DNA of 64,000 bases from Aliarcobacter skirrowii CCUG 10374 (lineage in GTDB: Bacteria > Campylobacterota > Campylobacteria > Campylobacterales > Arcobacteraceae): contig NZ_CP032099.1 in the NCBI RefSeq assembly GCF_003544835.1, positions 806,001-870,000 on the forward strand, read 5' to 3'. This document shows, one piece after another, positions 7,653 to 29,059 of the stretch. Under the pieces are notes generated by a model. That model ran no database searches, had not been told where the DNA came from, and worked only from the letters and a program-made list of their open reading frames with translations. Made by a program: the position numbers and the translations under genes. Numbering within the stretch: position 1 is the first letter of the stretch; each line of letters starts with the position of its first letter.

Positions 7653-7726
7653 TTTTTTAATTTCGTTTAAAAACTATTAATAAATTTTAAATAAAATCGG
7701 TCAAATTTATATTTTAGGAAAGAAAT

Positions 7727-8986
7727 ATGCCACCTACTACCTTGCAGATAATTGCTGCAGTTATATTTGCAATTGCAATTATTCATATATTCTCAGTTAA
7801 ATATTTTGAAAATTTAGCAAATAGAAGCGAAAAACACTCTGGACTTTTCCACCTTTTGGGTGAAATAGAGGTTGTTTTTGGAATTTGGGCTATGATTTTA
7901 GTAATTTTTATGTTTGTTTTTCTTGGAAAAGCAGAAACTATGGATTATGTAAATAATAGAAACTTTGTTGAACCAATGTTCGTTTTTGTGATTATGGTTA
8001 TTGCAGCAACAAGACCAATATTACACACTGTAATAGCAGTTGTTAAGAGATTGTCGAATATTTTGCCAAGAAAAGGTGCAACAGGATTTTACTTTGTAGT
8101 TATGTGTATTGTTCCTTTGTTTGGTTCATTTATCACAGAACCTGCTGCTATGACCCTTGCAGCTTTAATTTTAAGTGATAAACTATTTTCTCAAGGTATT
8201 TCAAATAAACTAAAATATATGACTTTGGGAGCTTTATTTGTAAATGTTTCAATTGGTGGAACATTAACAAACTTTGCTGCACCACCAATATTGATGGTTG
8301 CTCAAACTTGGGATTGGAGTAGCTATTTTATGCTTATAACTTTTGGTTGGAAAGCTGCTATTGCAATATTTTTAAATACTAGTATTATTATGCTATTTTT
8401 CTTTAAAGAGTTATCTGCTATAAATATACGAACAACAGTTAGTGATAGAGAAAAAATACCATTTGTTATAGTTTTAATTCACTTTTTATTTTTGGCTTTA
8501 GTGGTTTATTTTGGGCATTATCCACCATTTTTTATGAGTCTATTTTTACTATTTTTAGGTGTAACTTATGCCTATCAACAATATCAAGATAGATTGATGC
8601 TAAGAGAGGGATTATTGGTTGCATTTTTCCTAGGTGGACTTGTGATTTTAGGCGGTCAACAAGCTTGGTGGCTAAAAGATATAATTCAAAGCTTAACAAA
8701 TGCTCAAGCATTTTTTGGAGCTATTGGTCTTGGAGCATTTACTGATAATGCAGCAATTACATATTTAGGTTCATTAATTGATGGTTTAAGTGATGAGTTT
8801 AAATACTATTTAGTTGCAGGAGCTGTTACAGGTGGTGGTTTAACAGTTATTGCAAATGCACCAAATCCAGCTGGTGTTGCAATATTAAAAAACCATTTTG
8901 AAGATGGTGCTGTTGATCCTAGATATCTATTCTTAGGAGCAATTTTCCCTACTATTGTTGCTAGTATTTGTTTTATTATTTTATAA
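7727..8986 (+). CDS. Putative Na+/H+ antiporter, inner membrane
   Basis: A 419-residue polytopic membrane protein with about eleven hydrophobic helices. It matches the 'putative Na+/H+ antiporter' family (Na_H_antiport_3 type) common in Campylobacterota: an early LLGEIEVVFGIWAM, a central FGSFITEPAAMTLAA, and late SAAP-like segments FTDNAAITYLGS and NAPNPAGVAIL. Charged residues inside helices (the Glu of ITEPAA, the Asp of FTDNA) are plausible ion ligands. Preceded by AGGAAAG before the ATG. Ion specificity is inferred from the family only. Confidence 0.75.
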   Translation: MPPTTLQIIAAVIFAIAIIHIFSVKYFENLANRSEKHSGLFHLLGEIEVVFGIWAMILVIFMFVFLGKAETMDYVNNRNFVEPMFVFVIMVIAATRPILHTVIAVVKRLSNILPRKGATGFYFVVMCIVPLFGSFITEPAAMTLAALILSDKLFSQGISNKLKYMTLGALFVNVSIGGTLTNFAAPPILMVAQTWDWSSYFMLITFGWKAAIAIFLNTSIIMLFFFKELSAINIRTTVSDREKIPFVIVLIHFLFLALVVYFGHYPPFFMSLFLLFLGVTYAYQQYQDRLMLREGLLVAFFLGGLVILGGQQAWWLKDIIQSLTNAQAFFGAIGLGAFTDNAAITYLGSLIDGLSDEFKYYLVAGAVTGGGLTVIANAPNPAGVAILKNHFEDGAVDPRYLFLGAIFPTIVASICFIIL

Positions 8987-9833: not shown

Positions 9834-11294
9834 ATGGAAGAACAAAATATAAAAACACAAAAATTTATTATCAAATATTTTACAGAAATTATGATAAAAG
9901 GCGATACTGCAAAAAGGCATATGATTCAACAACTTTATGTAAATTTACAAAGTATTTCAAGTCATATTAGTAAAGATATAAAAATTAAAAAATTTTTTGA
10001 CAAAATAGAGCTAGAGACACCAATTGAGTTTAGTGAAGAGTTAAAACAAAAACTTTTAAATACATCTGGAATACAGCAAGTTTTAGAAGCAATTACTATT
10101 GAAAATATGAATAGTTTAGATGATATAAAAGTTGAAGTAAACAAGCATATGGCAAATACAATTACAGATAAAACTTTTGTTGTAAGAGCAAAAAGAGTTG
10201 GTCAACAAAATTTTAAATCTATGCATATAGAGCAGACAGTTGGTGGATATATGTTGGCAAACAATCAAACAAAAGGTGTTAAGCTAAAAGATGCTGATGT
10301 TACAATAAAGCTTGAGTTAGAGCATAATAAACTTCATATAATTACTAAAAAGTATGAAGGAATGGGTGGTTTTCCAATAGGAACTCAAGGTGAAATTTTG
10401 AGTTTAATGTCAGGAGGATTTGATTCAACAGTTGCTTCATATTTATCAATAAAAAGAGGAGTAAAAACTCACTATATATTTTTTAATCTTGGTGGAGTTG
10501 CTCATGAAATTGGAGTTAAACAAGTTGCTTGGTATTTATGGAATAATTATGCAAGTTCTCATAGTGTAAATTTTATTACAATACCATTTGAAGATGTTGT
10601 TGGACAAATTTTTAAAGATATAAGCCCTTCATATATGGGAGTTATGTTAAAAAGGCTTATGGTTCAAGCTGCACAAGAAGTTGCAAAAAGTTTAAAAATA
10701 GATGCTTTATTAACAGGAGAGAGTGTTGCTCAAGTATCTAGTCAAACTTTAAGAAATCTAAGTTTAATTGATGATGTTAGTGATATTTTGATTTTAAGAC
10801 CACTTGCATTTATGTCAAAGCCTGATATTATAGAACTTGCAACAAAAATTGGTACAAAAAAGTTTGCTGAAGCTATGCCTGAGTATTGTGGTGTAATATC
10901 AAAACACCCTGTAACATCTGGAAGTTTTGAAAGAGTTAAAAAAGAGTCACAAAATTTTGATTATACTGTTTTAGATGAAGCTATTAAAAATGCAAAAGTT
11001 AAAAGAATATTTGAAGTTTTAGATGATGTTTGTGATATTGGTACTTTAGAAGTTGTAAATAGTGTTGAAAAAAATGATATTGTAATAGATATAAGACAAG
11101 ATGATAATAGTATAAAACTTGATTGTGAAGTTTTAAAAATACCATTTTATAGATTGAAAAATGAGTTTAAAAATTTGGATAAAAACAGAAACTATCTTTT
11201 ATATTGTGATAAAGGTGTTTTAAGTCAACTTCATGGACAATATTTAAAAGATGAAGCAGGATATACAAATATAAAAGTATATCGACCAAATTAA
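9834..11294 (+). CDS. thiI: tRNA uracil 4-sulfurtransferase ThiI
   Basis: A 486-residue enzyme for 4-thiouridine at tRNA position 8 and, where the pathway exists, sulfur transfer to the ThiS carrier for thiazole. Domains in order: NFLD/THUMP (about 1-170), PP-loop pyrophosphatase with SGGFDST at 193-199, and a C-terminal rhodanese domain from about 395 ending with LLYCDKG, Cys458 being the persulfide-carrying residue. A further cysteine in PEYCGVISKHP corresponds to the second redox cysteine. Length equals the long, rhodanese-containing form. A TATAAT lies 30 bases upstream. Confidence 0.93.
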   Translation: MEEQNIKTQKFIIKYFTEIMIKGDTAKRHMIQQLYVNLQSISSHISKDIKIKKFFDKIELETPIEFSEELKQKLLNTSGIQQVLEAITIENMNSLDDIKVEVNKHMANTITDKTFVVRAKRVGQQNFKSMHIEQTVGGYMLANNQTKGVKLKDADVTIKLELEHNKLHIITKKYEGMGGFPIGTQGEILSLMSGGFDSTVASYLSIKRGVKTHYIFFNLGGVAHEIGVKQVAWYLWNNYASSHSVNFITIPFEDVVGQIFKDISPSYMGVMLKRLMVQAAQEVAKSLKIDALLTGESVAQVSSQTLRNLSLIDDVSDILILRPLAFMSKPDIIELATKIGTKKFAEAMPEYCGVISKHPVTSGSFERVKKESQNFDYTVLDEAIKNAKVKRIFEVLDDVCDIGTLEVVNSVEKNDIVIDIRQDDNSIKLDCEVLKIPFYRLKNEFKNLDKNRNYLLYCDKGVLSQLHGQYLKDEAGYTNIKVYRPN

Positions 11295-16404: not shown

Positions 16405-16762
16405 TTATATATTTAAACTAATTACAGATGCTACAGTTTGGTTTACTTTTTTTACTATGTTATTAATGATTTTTAATACATATAGATTAATAAAAAGAAT
16501 GAATAAAATAGATATCTATTTTAATGATATAAAACTACCAATTCCAATATTAAGAAAAGAGTGTACAAGAGGTGAAATTCAAGGTGTTTTGGGAGTTTTT
16601 ACAAAAGATATGCAAAGATATAATATTGAATTTATGGGAACTATAGAGTATTTAAATAGACTTACAGATGTTCAAAATAATAAATCAAATAAATTGGTAA
16701 TAAACATAAGCGAAAAAGAGTTGGAGCAGTTTAAAGATGAACTATACAAAACTAACAATTAA
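16397..16762 (+). CDS. Single-pass membrane protein in the type III CRISPR operon
   Basis: A 121-residue protein: one helix at about residues 8-29 (FKLITDATVWFTFFTMLLMI), then a basic stretch YRLIKRMNKI and a soluble, presumably cytoplasmic domain of about 85 residues containing RKECTRGEIQGVLG. The ATG at 16397 overlaps the preceding stop; its own end overlaps the cas6 start by 26 bases. No known domain was recognised. With the preceding gene it could form a two-subunit membrane device responding to the Cas10 signal. Confidence 0.62.
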   Translation: MFDYIFKLITDATVWFTFFTMLLMIFNTYRLIKRMNKIDIYFNDIKLPIPILRKECTRGEIQGVLGVFTKDMQRYNIEFMGTIEYLNRLTDVQNNKSNKLVINISEKELEQFKDELYKTNN

Positions 16763-17534
16763 GATAAACAGCACTGACAAACCACCATACTTTATGGGCT
16801 CTCAGCTTCGTGGAGCTTTTGGTTATGCTTTGAAAAATATAGAAAAAAATGTTGAAAACTCTTTGTACAGTAAATTTTTTGAAAAGAAAAATGAGATACA
16901 TCAATATAGATTTGATATAAGATTGGGTTTACAATTTTATGAATTTTCATTCTATCTTTTTGATGACTCTTGTGATGAAATTTTTATAGTAATAAGTGCT
17001 TTTTATGAGATGCTTACAAATATTGGTTTGGGAAAAGAGAATAAAATCTATAAAGATTTTGAGATATATTTAAATGATAATATTATTTATCAAAATGGAA
17101 ATTTAAAAGAGATTACAGACTATATAAAAACTTTTAATCAAGCTAAAAAGTATAAAGATGAGATAATTCTAACTTTAGTAACTCCACTTCGTATAAAAAA
17201 AGATGGAAAATTTGTAATAGATGATAATTTGGAGTTTGAGTCAATTTTAAAATCAATATATCGAAGAAGTTTAGCTATAAAAAATAGTGAATTTGAGAAA
17301 ATACCATTTAAACCAAGATATAAAATTAAATCAAAGGATATATATTTTAATGATTTAAAAAGATTTAGTAATTTACAAAATAGTAGTATGAATTTAGGAG
17401 GTCTTATGGGAGAATTTTGGATAAGTAATTTAGATGAAAAAAGTTATCAACTTTTGAAGCTTGGAGAGCTAATTGGAGTTGGAAAACAGACAGTTTTTGG
17501 GCTTGGAAAAATAACTATAAAAGGAGTGAAATAG
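16737..17534 (+). CDS. cas6: CRISPR pre-crRNA endoribonuclease Cas6
   Basis: A 265-residue RAMP-fold protein. The N-terminal ferredoxin-like half starts with KLTIKINSTDKPPYFMGSQLRGAFG; the C-terminal half carries the Cas6 glycine-rich loop GVGKQTVFGLGKI at 247-259. It cuts pre-crRNA inside the repeat, expected just before the final eight nucleotides ATTGAAAC that become the crRNA handle. No other Cas6 is visible in the window, so it must process both plain and insert-bearing repeats of the adjacent array. Catalytic residues vary in this family and are not assigned. Confidence 0.78.
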   Translation: MNYTKLTIKINSTDKPPYFMGSQLRGAFGYALKNIEKNVENSLYSKFFEKKNEIHQYRFDIRLGLQFYEFSFYLFDDSCDEIFIVISAFYEMLTNIGLGKENKIYKDFEIYLNDNIIYQNGNLKEITDYIKTFNQAKKYKDEIILTLVTPLRIKKDGKFVIDDNLEFESILKSIYRRSLAIKNSEFEKIPFKPRYKIKSKDIYFNDLKRFSNLQNSSMNLGGLMGEFWISNLDEKSYQLLKLGELIGVGKQTVFGLGKITIKGVK

Positions 17535-24341: not shown

Positions 24342-25592
24342 ATGGCAAAAATTTTAATAACTCTTCTTGGAACTGGGAGTAAAGCAAAAGGCGATAACAC
24401 AAATAACAATTATGAATTAGCAGATTATATAATTGATGATAAAATTTACGAAAAAAGAGCATTTATATCTAGTGCAATAGCAGAGCATTATGAGGTTGAT
24501 AAAATATTTACAATAGGTACAAAACAATCTATGTGGGATAATTTGTGCGAATTTTATAATACAAATGAAGAATATCATTTTGAAGTATTGAATTTAAAAG
24601 AAAAAGAACTTTTAGATGAAGATAAATTAGAAGGCTTATCAAGTGCAATTGATAAGAAACTACAAAACAGTGGCTCAAAATGTTTTATTATAGAAAATAG
24701 TGAAAGTAGTGAAGAAATTTGGCAAATGTTTGAAAAAATGTTACATATTTTAGATGATGTAGATGATAAAGATGAGTTATATTTTGATATTACACATCTT
24801 TTTAGGTCAGTTTCAGTTTTTTCGATGATAATTGCAGAATTTGCACAAATTACAAGAGATATAAAAATATCAGGTATGTTTTATGGTTTATTAAAAAAAG
24901 GCAAACCTTCAGTTGTAGTTGATTTATCTTTATATTTTGAATTTTTAGCTTGGACTAGAGCTATAAAATCTTTAAAAGATTACGGAAATGCAAGTGAGCT
25001 ATTAAAACTTTTAGAATCTAGTAATCAAAGCAAGGAGATAGTAAATAGCTTTAAAAGTTTTGCATACTCTTTAAGTATATCAGATATGGGAGAGCTACAA
25101 AATAGTATTGAAATTTTAAAAGGAAAAATAGATAAATTTGTATTAAGCAATAATCCTATTGTAAGATTAATATCAAAAGATCTTTTAGAATTTATAAATA
25201 GATTTGGAAAAATCAAAAAAGATGAGCTAGCCAAATTTCAGTTTGAATTAACAAAATGGTATAGCCAAAACAACAATCATGCTATGGCATATATTACACT
25301 TGCAGAAGCTTCTGTTACTGCTGTTTGTGAAGCAAATAATTTGGATGTAGCATCTATGGAAGATAGAAAAAAAGCACAAAATATATTATTTGAATATAGT
25401 AAATGGAGTAATGACTACCCAAAGGAACTCCAAAAAATAGGAGAAACATATTCAAAAATAAATAATATTAGAAATAATATTGCCCATAAACTTTCAGGAA
25501 ATTCAAAAAGATCAAAATCTACCCCTACAAATAGTGTTGAAAATTTATCAAACTATATAAATATTTTGGAAAGTTTATTAAAAACAAAATAA
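24342..25592 (+). CDS. CARF-HEPN RNase, Csx1/Csx2 type (TIGR02221-like)
   Basis: A 416-residue type III ancillary effector. The N-terminal CARF domain begins AKILITLLGTG and has the family motif FDITHLFRSVSVF at 148-160, part of the cyclic oligoadenylate pocket. The C-terminal HEPN domain carries R-x4-H as RNNIAH (Arg377, His382), the RNase active site. It is expected to bind the second messenger made by Cas10 and degrade RNA non-specifically. It is the last gene of the interference operon; the adaptation genes start from a separate motif-bearing promoter. Confidence 0.83.
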   Translation: MAKILITLLGTGSKAKGDNTNNNYELADYIIDDKIYEKRAFISSAIAEHYEVDKIFTIGTKQSMWDNLCEFYNTNEEYHFEVLNLKEKELLDEDKLEGLSSAIDKKLQNSGSKCFIIENSESSEEIWQMFEKMLHILDDVDDKDELYFDITHLFRSVSVFSMIIAEFAQITRDIKISGMFYGLLKKGKPSVVVDLSLYFEFLAWTRAIKSLKDYGNASELLKLLESSNQSKEIVNSFKSFAYSLSISDMGELQNSIEILKGKIDKFVLSNNPIVRLISKDLLEFINRFGKIKKDELAKFQFELTKWYSQNNNHAMAYITLAEASVTAVCEANNLDVASMEDRKKAQNILFEYSKWSNDYPKELQKIGETYSKINNIRNNIAHKLSGNSKRSKSTPTNSVENLSNYINILESLLKTK

Positions 25593-25613
25593 ATATTTTT
25601 TTAAATCAAAAAC

Positions 25614-25644
25614 GACAATATCTGTCAAAGTTTTCATATATAAT
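25614..25644 (+). promoter_or_regulatory. Operator and -10 box upstream of the adaptation genes
   Basis: GACAATATCTGTC at 25614-25626, then 12 bases, then TATAAT at 25639-25644. It drives the 41-aa gene and probably cas2-cas1-cas2. Confidence 0.75.
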
Positions 25645-25671
25645 TTCACAAAATCAAACAAGGAAATATAT

Positions 25672-25797
25672 ATGAAAACAAAAATAACAATAAAAACAGA
25701 CAAGATAAAACAAAGAGTAGTTTGGAACTTCAAACCCACAACAAGAGTAAAACCTAGCAAAAAAATTTATAGTAGAAAAAAAGATATTATTTACTAA
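25672..25797 (+). CDS. 41-residue basic protein ahead of cas2
   Basis: A short ORF with a good ribosome-binding site (AAGGAA) and its own motif-bearing promoter. The product, MKTKITIKTDKIKQRVVWNF onwards, is very basic (16 Lys/Arg) with an aromatic centre VVWNFKP and a C-terminal KPSKKIYSRKK. No family assigned; similar tiny basic 'W-x-x-x-P-x-T-R' proteins occur in phage and accessory regions, but this is recall only. It is placed 33 bases before the first cas2, so a nucleic-acid-binding role in adaptation or regulation is possible. Confidence 0.55.
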   Translation: MKTKITIKTDKIKQRVVWNFKPTTRVKPSKKIYSRKKDIIY

Positions 25798-25830
25798 ACA
25801 TAGCAAGTTTTAAACAATAAAGGGGAAAAT

Positions 25831-26097
25831 ATGAAAAATTATCTAGTTCTTTATGACATTTTTAATACAAAAAGAGCATATAAAATAAGAAAATATCTTT
25901 ACAAACACACAACAGGTGGGCAAAAATCAGCCCTAGAAATTCCACTAGATGAAAAACTATCAGATAAGCTAATATTTAAATTAAATAGCTACACAAAAGA
26001 TATAGACAAAATAAATATTGTAAAGATTTACAAAAACCCAATTCTACTTGGAAAAGCTTCACAACTAAACATAATTTCAAATGGAGTAATAGTATGA
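25831..26097 (+). CDS. cas2: Cas2-like protein, first copy
   Basis: An 88-residue ferredoxin-fold protein: LVLYDIFNTKRAYKIRKYL carries the Cas2 YDI motif (Asp9) and the R-x-x-K-x-x-K-x-L helix, followed by GGQKSALEI. It would dimerise as the scaffold between Cas1 dimers during spacer capture. It has a strong AAAGGGG site. Its TGA overlaps the ATG of the cas1 remnant (ATGA). It is quite different in sequence from the second cas2 at 26706. Confidence 0.78.
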   Translation: MKNYLVLYDIFNTKRAYKIRKYLYKHTTGGQKSALEIPLDEKLSDKLIFKLNSYTKDIDKINIVKIYKNPILLGKASQLNIISNGVIV

Positions 26098-26114
26098 AAA
26101 TAGCAATACCTTGA
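26094..26114 (+). other. Original cas1 start reduced to a seven-codon mini-ORF
   Basis: ATG at 26094 has GGAG eight bases upstream and overlaps the cas2 stop, as expected for the true cas1 start, but it reads only six amino acids (MKIAIP) to TGA at 26112. That TGA overlaps the TTG (26111) that opens the remaining cas1 frame. Confidence 0.6.
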
Positions 26115-26719
26115 TAGCAAAAGATATTTTACTTGACAAAGTAAAACTACACAAATTGCATTTAGAAAAGTATGAAATAGATTTAAATATAAAATTAATT
26201 CTAAAAAAAATAGAAAAAGCACAAAATATAGATGAACTCATGGGAATAGAAGGCTCATTTGCTAAAACATATTTCAAAGAGTTTTTCTCACTTTTGCCAA
26301 AAAATATGCACAAAAACAAAAGAAGTAAAAATCCACCACAAGACCCAGCAAATGCAGTTTTGTCACTATTTTATACACTCTACTACAATATAATTTCAAT
26401 AAAACTTTTAACTCATGGTTTTGAACCATCTATTGGATACTTGCATACGCCATTTCGTGAACACAATGCTTTGGCATCTGATTTAATGGAGCTTTTTAGA
26501 GCAGATATAAATGAAGAAGTTATACAAATATTTAAAGAAAATCTTCTAAGCTTAGATGATTTTACAAAAAAAGGTGGAGTCTATTTAAAATATGAAGCTA
26601 GAAGTAAGATTTGGAAAAGATTTTTAGAGCTAGAAGCAAGATTAAAATCAAAGCTAGATAAAGAAGTAGCAAACATAAGAGCAAAAATCTCAAAGGATAT
26701 TTTAGATGAAGTTGCATGA
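26111..26719 (+). CDS. cas1: Cas1 lacking its N-terminal domain
   Basis: A 202-residue frame covering only the C-terminal helical domain of Cas1 (normally about 300-330 residues). The integrase triad is present: Glu47 in GIEGSFAKTYF, His112 in GYLHTP, and Asp124 with Glu127 in ASDLMELFRA. The N-terminal beta domain, which makes the Cas1 dimer interface, is missing. The frame has no ATG; a TTG at 26111 overlaps the TGA of the mini-ORF that starts at the original ATG, so reinitiation is conceivable. Either a decayed gene after an internal deletion or a minimal Cas1; a full Cas1 elsewhere could serve the array. Confidence 0.7.
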   Translation: MIAKDILLDKVKLHKLHLEKYEIDLNIKLILKKIEKAQNIDELMGIEGSFAKTYFKEFFSLLPKNMHKNKRSKNPPQDPANAVLSLFYTLYYNIISIKLLTHGFEPSIGYLHTPFREHNALASDLMELFRADINEEVIQIFKENLLSLDDFTKKGGVYLKYEARSKIWKRFLELEARLKSKLDKEVANIRAKISKDILDEVA

Positions 26720-26978
26720 TTATATTATTTGTTATGATATTTCAGATAAAAAAAGATTGGTAAAAATATCAAAACTACTTGAAAAAACAGCAGCTAGAAT
26801 ACAATACTCTATATACTTTTATCCAAAAGTAGCAAAAGAGTGTATAGATGATTTAGTAGAAAAATTGAATAAACTAATAAATCAAGAAGAGGATGATATA
26901 AGAATTTATAAAATTGATATTAAAAATAGTATCCATCTAAAAAGTGGAATAGATTTGCAAAATCCATTTGTGATTTGA
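26706..26978 (+). CDS. cas2: Cas2, second copy
   Basis: A 90-residue Cas2: IICYDISDKKRLVKISKLLE has the catalytic-type Asp in YDISD, followed by ARIQYSIYFYP, the canonical 'R-x-Q-x-S-[VI]-F' strand. It matches standard Cas2 better than the first copy. The ATG has AAGGA upstream and overlaps the cas1 stop by 14 bases. Two Cas2 genes flanking one Cas1 is an unusual arrangement; each could pair with different Cas1 proteins. Confidence 0.85.
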   Translation: MKLHDYIICYDISDKKRLVKISKLLEKTAARIQYSIYFYPKVAKECIDDLVEKLNKLINQEEDDIRIYKIDIKNSIHLKSGIDLQNPFVI

Positions 26979-27188: not shown

Positions 27189-27698
27189 ATTACAACATTG
27201 ACCCGATTTATAGGGGATTGAAACATAGCTTTTTCGTTATTTATTACTATCATTTAAATTACAACATTGACCCGATTTATAGGGGATTGAAACGTATTCT
27301 CGACATTGGAATCCTCCTTGATTATAATTACAACATTGACCCGATTTATAGGGGATTGAAACTTTCCTCCCTTTTTGAATAGGGCACATTTTTAAATTAC
27401 AACATTGACCCGATTTATAGGGGATTGAAACTTCACAACTTGACCACTTCTTCTAGCTAAATCAATTACAACATTGACCCGATTATTAGGGGATTGAAAC
27501 AACTTGTCCTAAACCCCTTTTGGGTATGGTTAGCCTATTACAACATTGACCCGATTATTAGGGGATTGAAACTAGTATCTGCTACTCCACCTACAGGGCT
27601 TTCACATTACAACATTGACCCGATTATTAGGGGATTGAAACAATATTCTTTAAAGGCTCTACTGATAAGAACTTTATTACAACATTGACCCGATTATT

Positions 27699-27775
27699 TT
27701 TGCCTTTGGCAAATTCAGTCATCACTAAAAATTACGAAATCGCCAAGGCTCATTTCTATTTTTAGGATTCAGAAG
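27699..27775 (+). repeat. 77-bp repeat-loop insert, copy 1 (repeat 8)
   Basis: Splits the repeat starting at 27676 between GATTATT and AGGGG. It contains hairpin TTTGCCTTTGGCAAA, then a long imperfect stem (CTAAAAAT...ATTTTTAG outside, GAAAT...ATTTC and GCC-AA-GGC inside), flanked by direct ATTCAG repeats. Variable sites: T35, C45, T70. Confidence 0.95.
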
Positions 27776-27843
27776 AGGGGATTGAAACTAAAGTTGCGTA
27801 TCCATATTTTGTTTTTCTAAATTACAACATTGACCCGATTATT

Positions 27844-27920
27844 TTTGCCTTTGGCAAATTCAGTCATCACTAAAAATCACGAAATCGCCAAGGCTCATTT
27901 CTATTTTTAGGATTCAGAAG
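27844..27920 (+). repeat. 77-bp repeat-loop insert, copy 2 (repeat 9)
   Basis: Same insertion point in the repeat starting at 27821. Differs from copy 1 only by C at insert position 35 (AAATCACG). Confidence 0.95.
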
Positions 27921-27989
27921 AGGGGATTGAAACCAAATTGTGCTAAAGCATTTCCTTGCCCAGTATATTACAACATTGACCCGATTATT

Positions 27990-28064
27990 TTTGCCTTTGG
28001 CAAATTCAGTCATCACTAAAAATTACGAAAAGCTAAAGCTTATTCTATTTTTAGGACTCAGAAG
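27990..28064 (+). repeat. 75-bp repeat-loop insert, copy 3 (repeat 10), divergent stem
   Basis: Same insertion point in the repeat starting at 27967. The inner arm is changed to AAGCT-AA-AGCTT in place of GCC-AA-GGC, two bases shorter overall but still base-paired; T35 and C70. Confidence 0.95.
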
Positions 28065-28635
28065 AGGGGATTGAAACTACAACCCAAGCTCTAGGAACTG
28101 TCATATCTAAATTACAACATTGACCCGATTATTAGGGGATTGAAACGTAAAAGAAGTATCAGAATGAAATAATTTTTCATTTATTACAACATTGACCCGA
28201 TTATTAGGGGATTGAAACAATAACTCTTCTTCATCACAATCATCTTTATCATAGATTACAACATTGACCCGATTATTAGGGGATTGAAACAAGATGGAAA
28301 AATTCTATCGTGTTGATTTCCTTAAATTACAACATTGACCCGATTATAAGGGGATTGAAACTGAACATCGGCAAATATAGTGATATTAAAAGTGTTATTA
28401 CAACATTGACCCGATTATAAGGGGATTGAAACCATCTTTTCAAAGATGTCTTTGTTTGTTATTATAAGATTACAACATTGACCCGATTATAAGGGGATTG
28501 AAACATCTGAACCAGTCTCTAAAGCTCTTTGAAAGTCTAGGATTACAACATTGACCCGATTATAAGGGGATTGAAACTCTTGTATCCTTTTTTTTGGTTT
28601 TTTCTATTCTATATTACAACATTGACCCGATTATT

Positions 28636-28712
28636 TTTGCCTTTGGCAAATTCAGTCATCACTAAAAATTACGAAATCGTCAAGGCTCATTTCTATTTTT
28701 AGGATTCAGAAG
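28636..28712 (+). repeat. 77-bp repeat-loop insert, copy 4 (repeat 18)
   Basis: Same insertion point in the repeat starting at 28613. T35 and T70 like copy 1; C45 is changed to T (ATCGTCAAGG). Confidence 0.95.
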
Positions 28713-28783
28713 AGGGGATTGAAACAAAAAGTCGTATAATTTCCACCATGCGTAAGAGTAATTACAACATTGACCCGATTATT

Positions 28784-28860
28784 TTTGCCTTTGGCAAATT
28801 CAGTCATCACTAAAAATCACGAAATCGCCAAGGCTCATTTCTATTTTTAGGATTCAGAAG
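28784..28860 (+). repeat. 77-bp repeat-loop insert, copy 5 (repeat 19)
   Basis: Same insertion point in the repeat starting at 28761. C35 and T70, identical to copy 2. Confidence 0.95.
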
Positions 28861-28928
28861 AGGGGATTGAAACATAGTGTTGCATAACTTTAATCATTTC
28901 TTTTAATTACAACATTGACCCGATTATT

Positions 28929-29006
28929 TTTGCCTTTGGCAAATTCAGTCATCACTAAAAATTACGAAATCGCCAAGGCTCATTTCTATTTTTAGGACTC
29001 AGAAAA
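28929..29006 (+). repeat. Repeat-loop insert, copy 6 (terminal repeat 20)
   Basis: Same insertion point in the last repeat (28906). T35 and C70 as in copy 3. The right junction reads CAGAAAAAGGGG instead of CAGAAGAGGGG, and the repeat ends in GGGGATTTTGATT, the decayed leader-distal terminus. Confidence 0.9.
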
Positions 29007-29059
29007 AGGGGATTTTGATTTACAATTTTAAAAAGTATAAAGTATTAATAATCTAAAAC

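Follow-up and report, generated by a model that had tools for sequence, protein, structure and literature searches.

Repeats with a folded 77-bp loop insert in a type III-D CRISPR array of Aliarcobacter skirrowii

The window that we analysed is a stretch of 64,000 nucleotides from Aliarcobacter skirrowii CCUG 10374, whose genome is complete (one contig of 1.97 Mb). It contains a cluster of cas genes followed by a CRISPR array. The cluster encodes Cas10, a Csx10-type Cas5, Csx19, and several Cas7 proteins, plus Cas6, which makes it a type III-D system. The genes beside the array are:

16737..17534, + strand: Cas6, 265 aa
17535..24331, + strand: type III-D effector genes, namely Cas10d, Cas7, Cas5 (Csx10), Cas7, Csx19/Cas11, and Cas7
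24342..25592, + strand: Csx1-type CARF-HEPN protein (TIGR02221)
25831..26097, + strand: first Cas2
26111..26719, + strand: Cas1 remnant, reduced to its catalytic C-terminal part (about 100 residues are gone from the N-terminus)
26706..26978, + strand: second Cas2

Between the csx1-like gene and the first cas2, the DNA (25594-25830) is 78% identical to its counterpart in another species of the genus (G026), even though the adaptation genes differ, and it includes a 41-amino-acid open reading frame at 25672 (MKTKITIKTDKIKQRVVWNFKPTTRVKPSKKIYSRKKDIIY). At 26098-26719, the start of cas1 (ATGAAAATAGCAATACC) is out of frame with the C-terminal part into which it runs. The gene that lies between cas1 and the second cas2 in two other Arcobacteraceae, G043 and G100, is also missing from the window.

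In the family model, the genome's only Cas1 match begins at position 99, and the protein is about 100 residues short of the Cas1 proteins from G043 and G100. Because the genome's only cas1 lacks the N-terminal domain, spacer acquisition has probably stopped, which would leave the array frozen.

The array has the following parts, where V1, V2, and V3 are variants of the loop in the repeat's hairpin:

27189..29019, + strand: CRISPR array of 20 repeats; the leader is on the low-coordinate side, and the degenerate repeat at 29019 is the leader-distal end
27189..27431, + strand: four plain repeats with loop variant V1 (ATTTAT), leader-proximal
27465..27641, + strand: three plain repeats with loop variant V2 (ATTATT), which is identical to the empty site of the insert
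27676..27788, + strand: insert-bearing repeat a, 113 bp, insert at 27699-27775
27821..27933, + strand: insert-bearing repeat b, 113 bp, insert at 27844-27920
27967..28077, + strand: insert-bearing repeat c, 111 bp, insert at 27990-28064; contains a 96-bp block identical to the end repeat of G026
28111..28290, + strand: three plain repeats, V2
28326..28577, + strand: four plain repeats, V3 (ATTATA)
28613..28725, + strand: insert-bearing repeat a', insert at 28636-28712
28761..28873, + strand: insert-bearing repeat b', insert at 28784-28860, identical to b
28906..29019, + strand: insert-bearing end repeat d, insert at 28929-29006, with a degenerate 3' end

Fourteen of the 20 repeats are plain 36-mers, and the other six (111-114 bp) bear an insert. 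Counting from the leader, the order is four V1, three V2, three insert-bearing, three V2, four V3, and three insert-bearing. An earlier sequence-only reading of this DNA had claimed that the plain repeats vary only in the hairpin loop, and we found three loop variants (ATTTAT in four repeats, ATTATT in six, ATTATA in four) and no other difference. Repeat mapping also confirmed its claim that six of the repeats are split at one site by an insert of 75-78 bp; in array order, the inserts are 77, 77, 75, 77, 77, and 78 bp. The insertion point is unambiguous (...CCCGATTATT / AGGGGATTGAAAC, which is between GATTATT and AGGGG). Among the plain variants, V2 (ATTATT) is the sole exact empty site, and V1 and V3 were never hit. 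Comparison of the empty site (ATTATT/AGGGG) to the filled site gives no target-site duplication.

The stem and the 3' handle of the split repeats had been described as untouched. AGGGG and ATTGAAAC are indeed intact in five copies, but copy d (28906), which is the array terminus, is degenerate and no longer ends in GAAAC (AAAAAGGGGATTTTGAT). The direct repeats (ATTCAG) that were noted in the insert are present in four copies, while in the copies at 27967 and 28906 the second one is ACTCAG. The two clusters of insert-bearing repeats have the same order of variants (a, b, and an end type), but their spacers are unrelated, and we rejected the idea that cluster 1 is a block duplicate of cluster 2.

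The possibility that the inserts are an assembly artefact, which had been raised as an objection, is unlikely because the genome is a single complete contig, the copies differ by SNPs, the spacers between them are unique, and two other genomes carry the insert.

When folded in isolation, the insert is predicted to form an imperfect internal palindrome with two hairpins. The predicted energies are -16.3 kcal/mol for the copy at 27676 (z = -3.6) and -16.0 kcal/mol for the copy at 27967 (z = -3.4). If an insert-bearing repeat is folded whole, then the CCC/GGG stem is predicted to close around the insert. So, RNA folding bears out the suggestion that the insert folds on its own within the loop and that the stem of the repeat is kept. 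Because a Cas6 gene is present and the stem closes in silico, processing of the insert-bearing repeats by Cas6 is plausible. In copy c, the middle of the insert's stem is GAAAAGCTAAAGCTTATTC, versus GAAATCGCCAAGGCTCATTTC in the other copies, and the pairing is kept despite the changed bases. Covariation across the insert alignment was not above that of shuffles (59/500) because the copies are too alike. Selection for the structure of the insert is possible. No Rfam model matched it.

Do the insert-bearing repeats function as repeats? Except for end copy d, they have the same ends as the plain repeats, and there are spacers of normal length (32-35 nt) on both sides. Two of these spacers match genes of mobile elements or islands, consistent with an origin from invaders, albeit imperfectly (91-92% identity): spacer 9, which is between b and c, has a 92% match to a helicase-like gene of G022, and spacer 18, which is between a' and b', has a 91% match to a TrbE/VirB4-type gene in a conjugative region of the same genome. 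The crRNAs of both spacers would be antisense to the matched genes. Type III systems need a crRNA that is antisense to the target gene. Spacer 7, which is directly before copy a, has a perfect match in G026. The spacers beside the insert-bearing repeats could either have been acquired in the ordinary way or have been brought in by recombination. The target of spacer 18 is at L174 3975-4008, where the strain's own conjugative region is partly matched by its own array.

We searched the whole genome for the insert and found no copies outside of the array. Among 104 genomes from the family and a sample of 397 from the class, only two relatives carry it, with one copy each (G026 and G015). A family-wide search with a covariance model of the whole 113-bp unit recovered the same eight copies. 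Copies at many random positions elsewhere, which the sequence-only reading had listed as grounds for giving up its interpretation, were thus looked for and do not occur in this genome; in the relatives searched the insert is seen only at the end of an array or of an array remnant. Exact and gapped patterns gave no hits in representative genomes and viral contigs (a collection that may leave out very near records), and a search of phage records with the insert gave no match. A plasmid search gave two weak matches, each covering under 40% of the query.

The flanking genes place G026, G015, and the window in the same chromosomal region. In G026, it is the leader-distal repeat that contains the insert, and the repeats of this array have another sequence (ATTCAATAACAATGACCCGATTTAAGGGGATTAAGAC). 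That array appears to be accompanied by an RT-Cas1 fusion, judging from the translation (by eye) and a hit to the Cas1 domain. In G015, the array is gone, but the insert's downstream portion is kept together with AGGGGATT and ~700 bp beyond it, at 97.6% identity to G026. Upstream of this scar, half of a repeat of yet another, third type (AATACCAATGACC...) survives in decayed form. So, the halves of the repeat that lie upstream of the insert differ among the three species. Because the region and the end position are shared while the upstream halves differ, the insert marks the array end at one locus, and the sequence before it, the first half of the repeat included, was exchanged. Although the sequence-only reading had the anatomy right, the insert's seat at the array terminus in several species was absent from its interpretation.

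In G015, the place of CRISPR-Cas (L055 10155-16125, - strand) is held by genes that look, by eye, like a Zorya-type system and a CARF-like nuclease. This replacement suggests that the locus in G015 and in the window is an exchange site for defence genes. As for G026, one unit of its array has a 103-nt "spacer" (L054, reverse complement of 7709-7848), in which the same sequence of ~28 nt is found on both sides of a repeat that has been cut down to ATTAAGAC. We interpret this unit as the remnant of a damaged duplication.

Copy c shares a 96-bp identical block with the end repeat of G026, while the neighbouring genes are just 81-84% identical. At 84% identity, 96 identical base pairs would be expected by chance with a probability of about 5e-8. 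The window's end copy (d) is about 91% identical to G026. Because of the contrast between the identical block and the neighbouring genes, we conclude that copy c arrived recently from the array end of another species. The simplest reading of the array is that V1-V2-INS(a,b,c) and V2-V3-INS(a',b',d) were two arrays, which have probably been joined end to end.

Hairpins at array ends are also found in other Arcobacteraceae. A related array in G043, which is from another genus, ends in a different two-hairpin module, and it has an internal copy of the module with the repeat end GAAAC. G100 has a homologous hairpin within a degenerate repeat, where it follows AACACAATATGACC. The terminal elements of G043 and G100 are homologous (0 of 1000 shuffles did as well), and covariation supports this. 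A model of the two-hairpin element has matches in 60 of the 104 family genomes, often many per genome. The element is ~90 bp and consists of a large hairpin (...AGTGAACTGCTTCACT...), a small hairpin, and then GAAGG or GGAGG. Some copies are in tandem, and copies are found directly before or behind genes and following 23S rRNA (for instance, L112:9690-9781 and 10289-10380, - strand; L114:4637-4720, - strand; L126-L138; and L139-L158). It had no match in Rfam and was not found in the window's genome.

The insert is not recognisable as a member of this family. Against the two-hairpin covariance models, its best match was antisense, at 5.9 bits (E = 1.7), and model R2 gave no match. We also rejected a general family of "array-end hairpins," as the model from G043 and G100 matches the dispersed copies and not the insert. 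Nor is an insert at the array end general: the end repeats are plain in G156, G273, G371, and G456. Hairpin modules at array ends, and copies of them further inside, thus arose at least twice.

These comparisons suggest that the insert was fixed first in the oldest repeat, at the end of the array, and was then carried within a 113-base repeat, rather than jumping six times. Our preferred explanation is one insertion into an end repeat, followed by the copying of whole repeats and by recombination between arrays. We would put its chances at about even. A folded sequence of ~77 bp would have entered the loop of an end repeat once, in a type III array of an ancestor of this Arcobacteraceae lineage or of a donor to it. 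A single founding insertion is likely. It kept this end position through exchanges, at the same locus, of arrays that have different repeats, as comparison of the three genomes shows, and in this genome it would have become part of a working 113-bp repeat. The insert-bearing repeats would have multiplied whole, most simply if Cas1-Cas2 duplicated the leader-side repeat during spacer acquisition. Since the insert is just upstream of AGGGG, a ruler that counts 8 bp to the end of the repeat would be undisturbed. With 8 bp following AGGGG, this is the only point at which a long insert might be duplicated whole. Recombination would have shuffled copies between arrays; this would include the arrival of copy c from the array end of another species and a fusion of arrays. 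The transcript would keep the CCC/GGGG stem and the ATTGAAAC handle, so Cas6 should still cut it, and the insert would sit 3' of the upstream crRNA and be trimmed.

One part of this proposal is that the type III-D Cas1-Cas2 duplicated the whole 113-bp repeat four times or more, with the insert folding out upstream of an AGGGG ruler. We rate this as a little less likely than not. If it is true, then the size of repeats is not limited to the known range, and they could contain structured cargo. The rulers of the integrases are believed to keep CRISPR repeats short and constant in length, and we know of no ruler from type III-D systems. In type II-A systems, extra bases placed ahead of the ruler only move the second site of integration, whose distance past the ruler remains 8 bp, so that the longer repeat is duplicated (PMC6895254). 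In our array, the runs of the same variant (V1 four times, V2 three times, V3 four times, and insert-bearing three times) look like block-wise copying of repeats. G043 is an independent example, as its array-end module recurs inside the array with the GAAAC end regained. On the other hand, an enlargement by 77 bp is far beyond the 1-3 bp that were tested in PMC6895254, and Cas1 is now truncated. Copy c is too divergent for b and a to have descended from it through serial duplication. The internal copies have GAAAC while end repeat d does not. Also, there are plain repeats leaderward of the insert-bearing ones, so exchange with plain repeats is needed as well.

Could recombination alone account for the array, by gene conversion, unequal exchange, and the joining of arrays from different strains or species, without copying by Cas1-Cas2? 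The two parts of the split repeat (23 bp and 8-13 bp) would provide homology, and recombination between repeats is well documented (PMC8047081). Copy c is clearly a recombinant arrival, the order of a, b, and an end type is seen in both clusters, and the end module of G043 has one internal copy. But this explanation requires at least four conversions in neighbouring repeats that left the unique spacers between them intact, and there are no duplicated spacers to mark unequal exchange. We consider it unlikely, though worth taking seriously. Alternatively, the insert could have a function as a structured RNA or DNA element, such as marking or ending the array transcript or regulating the distal spacers. 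This would fit with its retention at the array end in three species, with the pairing in the central stem of copy c despite the base changes, and with the fold z-scores near -3.5. The idea of an intrinsic terminator was prompted by the A-tract and T-tract that flank the long stem and by weak BLAST matches to hairpins of relatives, some of which are just downstream of genes. However, the hairpin before the T-run is weak (-2.4 kcal/mol, ranking 590 of 653 such sites in the window) and no terminator was called at the insert, so we rejected a terminator. Neither the covariation test nor Rfam favours a functional element, and we found no positive evidence of an RNA job for the multi-copy structured RNA that the sequence-only reading had suggested. 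A functional element seems improbable.

That reading had also raised a site-specific mobile element. A small non-autonomous element could have inserted six times here and independently in G026: the site and the orientation are identical every time, the insert forms two hairpins as an imperfect palindrome, the V2 repeats match its empty site perfectly, the surrounding repeat halves differ between species, and other hairpin elements of the Arcobacteraceae are located at array ends. Yet there is no copy outside of arrays in this genome or in the relatives that we searched, the V1 and V3 repeats were never hit, and the insert is not recognisably part of the dispersed two-hairpin family. Six inserts among 20 repeats would fall into two runs or fewer with p = 0.014 if sites were hit independently, and this clustering makes repeated independent insertion unlikely. 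The lack of other genomic copies and of a target duplication, the runs, and the confinement to the array end in two congeners all argue against an active process, and we think that this explanation has little chance of being correct. A MITE or transposon was rejected for want of both copies at unrelated sites and target-site duplication, though the lack of a duplication would still be compatible with elements that make none.

Our search of the open full-text literature (most subscription papers were outside its scope) turned up no array with a recurrent insert in the loop of its repeats, while array collapse, variation in terminal repeats, and MITEs in CRISPR-bearing genomes are all described. 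One close parallel is from Legionella pneumophila, in which arrays collapse and regrow from the last repeat, and terminal repeats are degenerate (PMC7056967; reviewed in PMC8047081). As in our array, the last repeat is a variant, blocks of repeats adopt the variant, and arrays are exchanged between strains. But in Legionella the variation is of a few bases, rather than a folded loop insert of 77 bp, and in our array the internal copies keep the 3' end that the last repeat has lost. For this last reason, we rejected regrowth from the present end repeat (d). Ruler-based duplication by Cas1-Cas2 in types I-E, I-B, and II-A (PMC6895254) is similar in that the insert is upstream of a conserved 3' block plus 8 bp; it differs in that insertions of 1-3 bp were tested there and in that the local Cas1 is truncated. 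Like the MITEs SMN1 and SM3A of Sulfolobus (PMC3718332), the insert is short, non-coding, palindromic, and multi-copy, but it lacks a target duplication and copies elsewhere and is confined to the repeats of one array. The dispersed two-hairpin element (models R2 and R3) shares with the insert its two hairpins, its seat in or beside a repeat at the array end (in G043 and G100), and an internal copy (in G043), but it has no significant similarity to the insert by sequence or by profile.

Repeats with a 77-bp insert and with real spacers on both sides are a natural experiment in how the integrase measures repeats and how much cargo they can hold. The insert also makes array exchange visible: it shows that the ends of arrays pass between species and that modules from the end appear inside arrays.

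A protospacer search of phage records gave nothing convincing. In an unannotated 636-kb sequence of an uncultured phage (LR756504.1), a 33-bp stretch at 222321-222353 (L177 1501-1533) resembles parts of the array (E = 0.6), and it is possibly a related CRISPR repeat.
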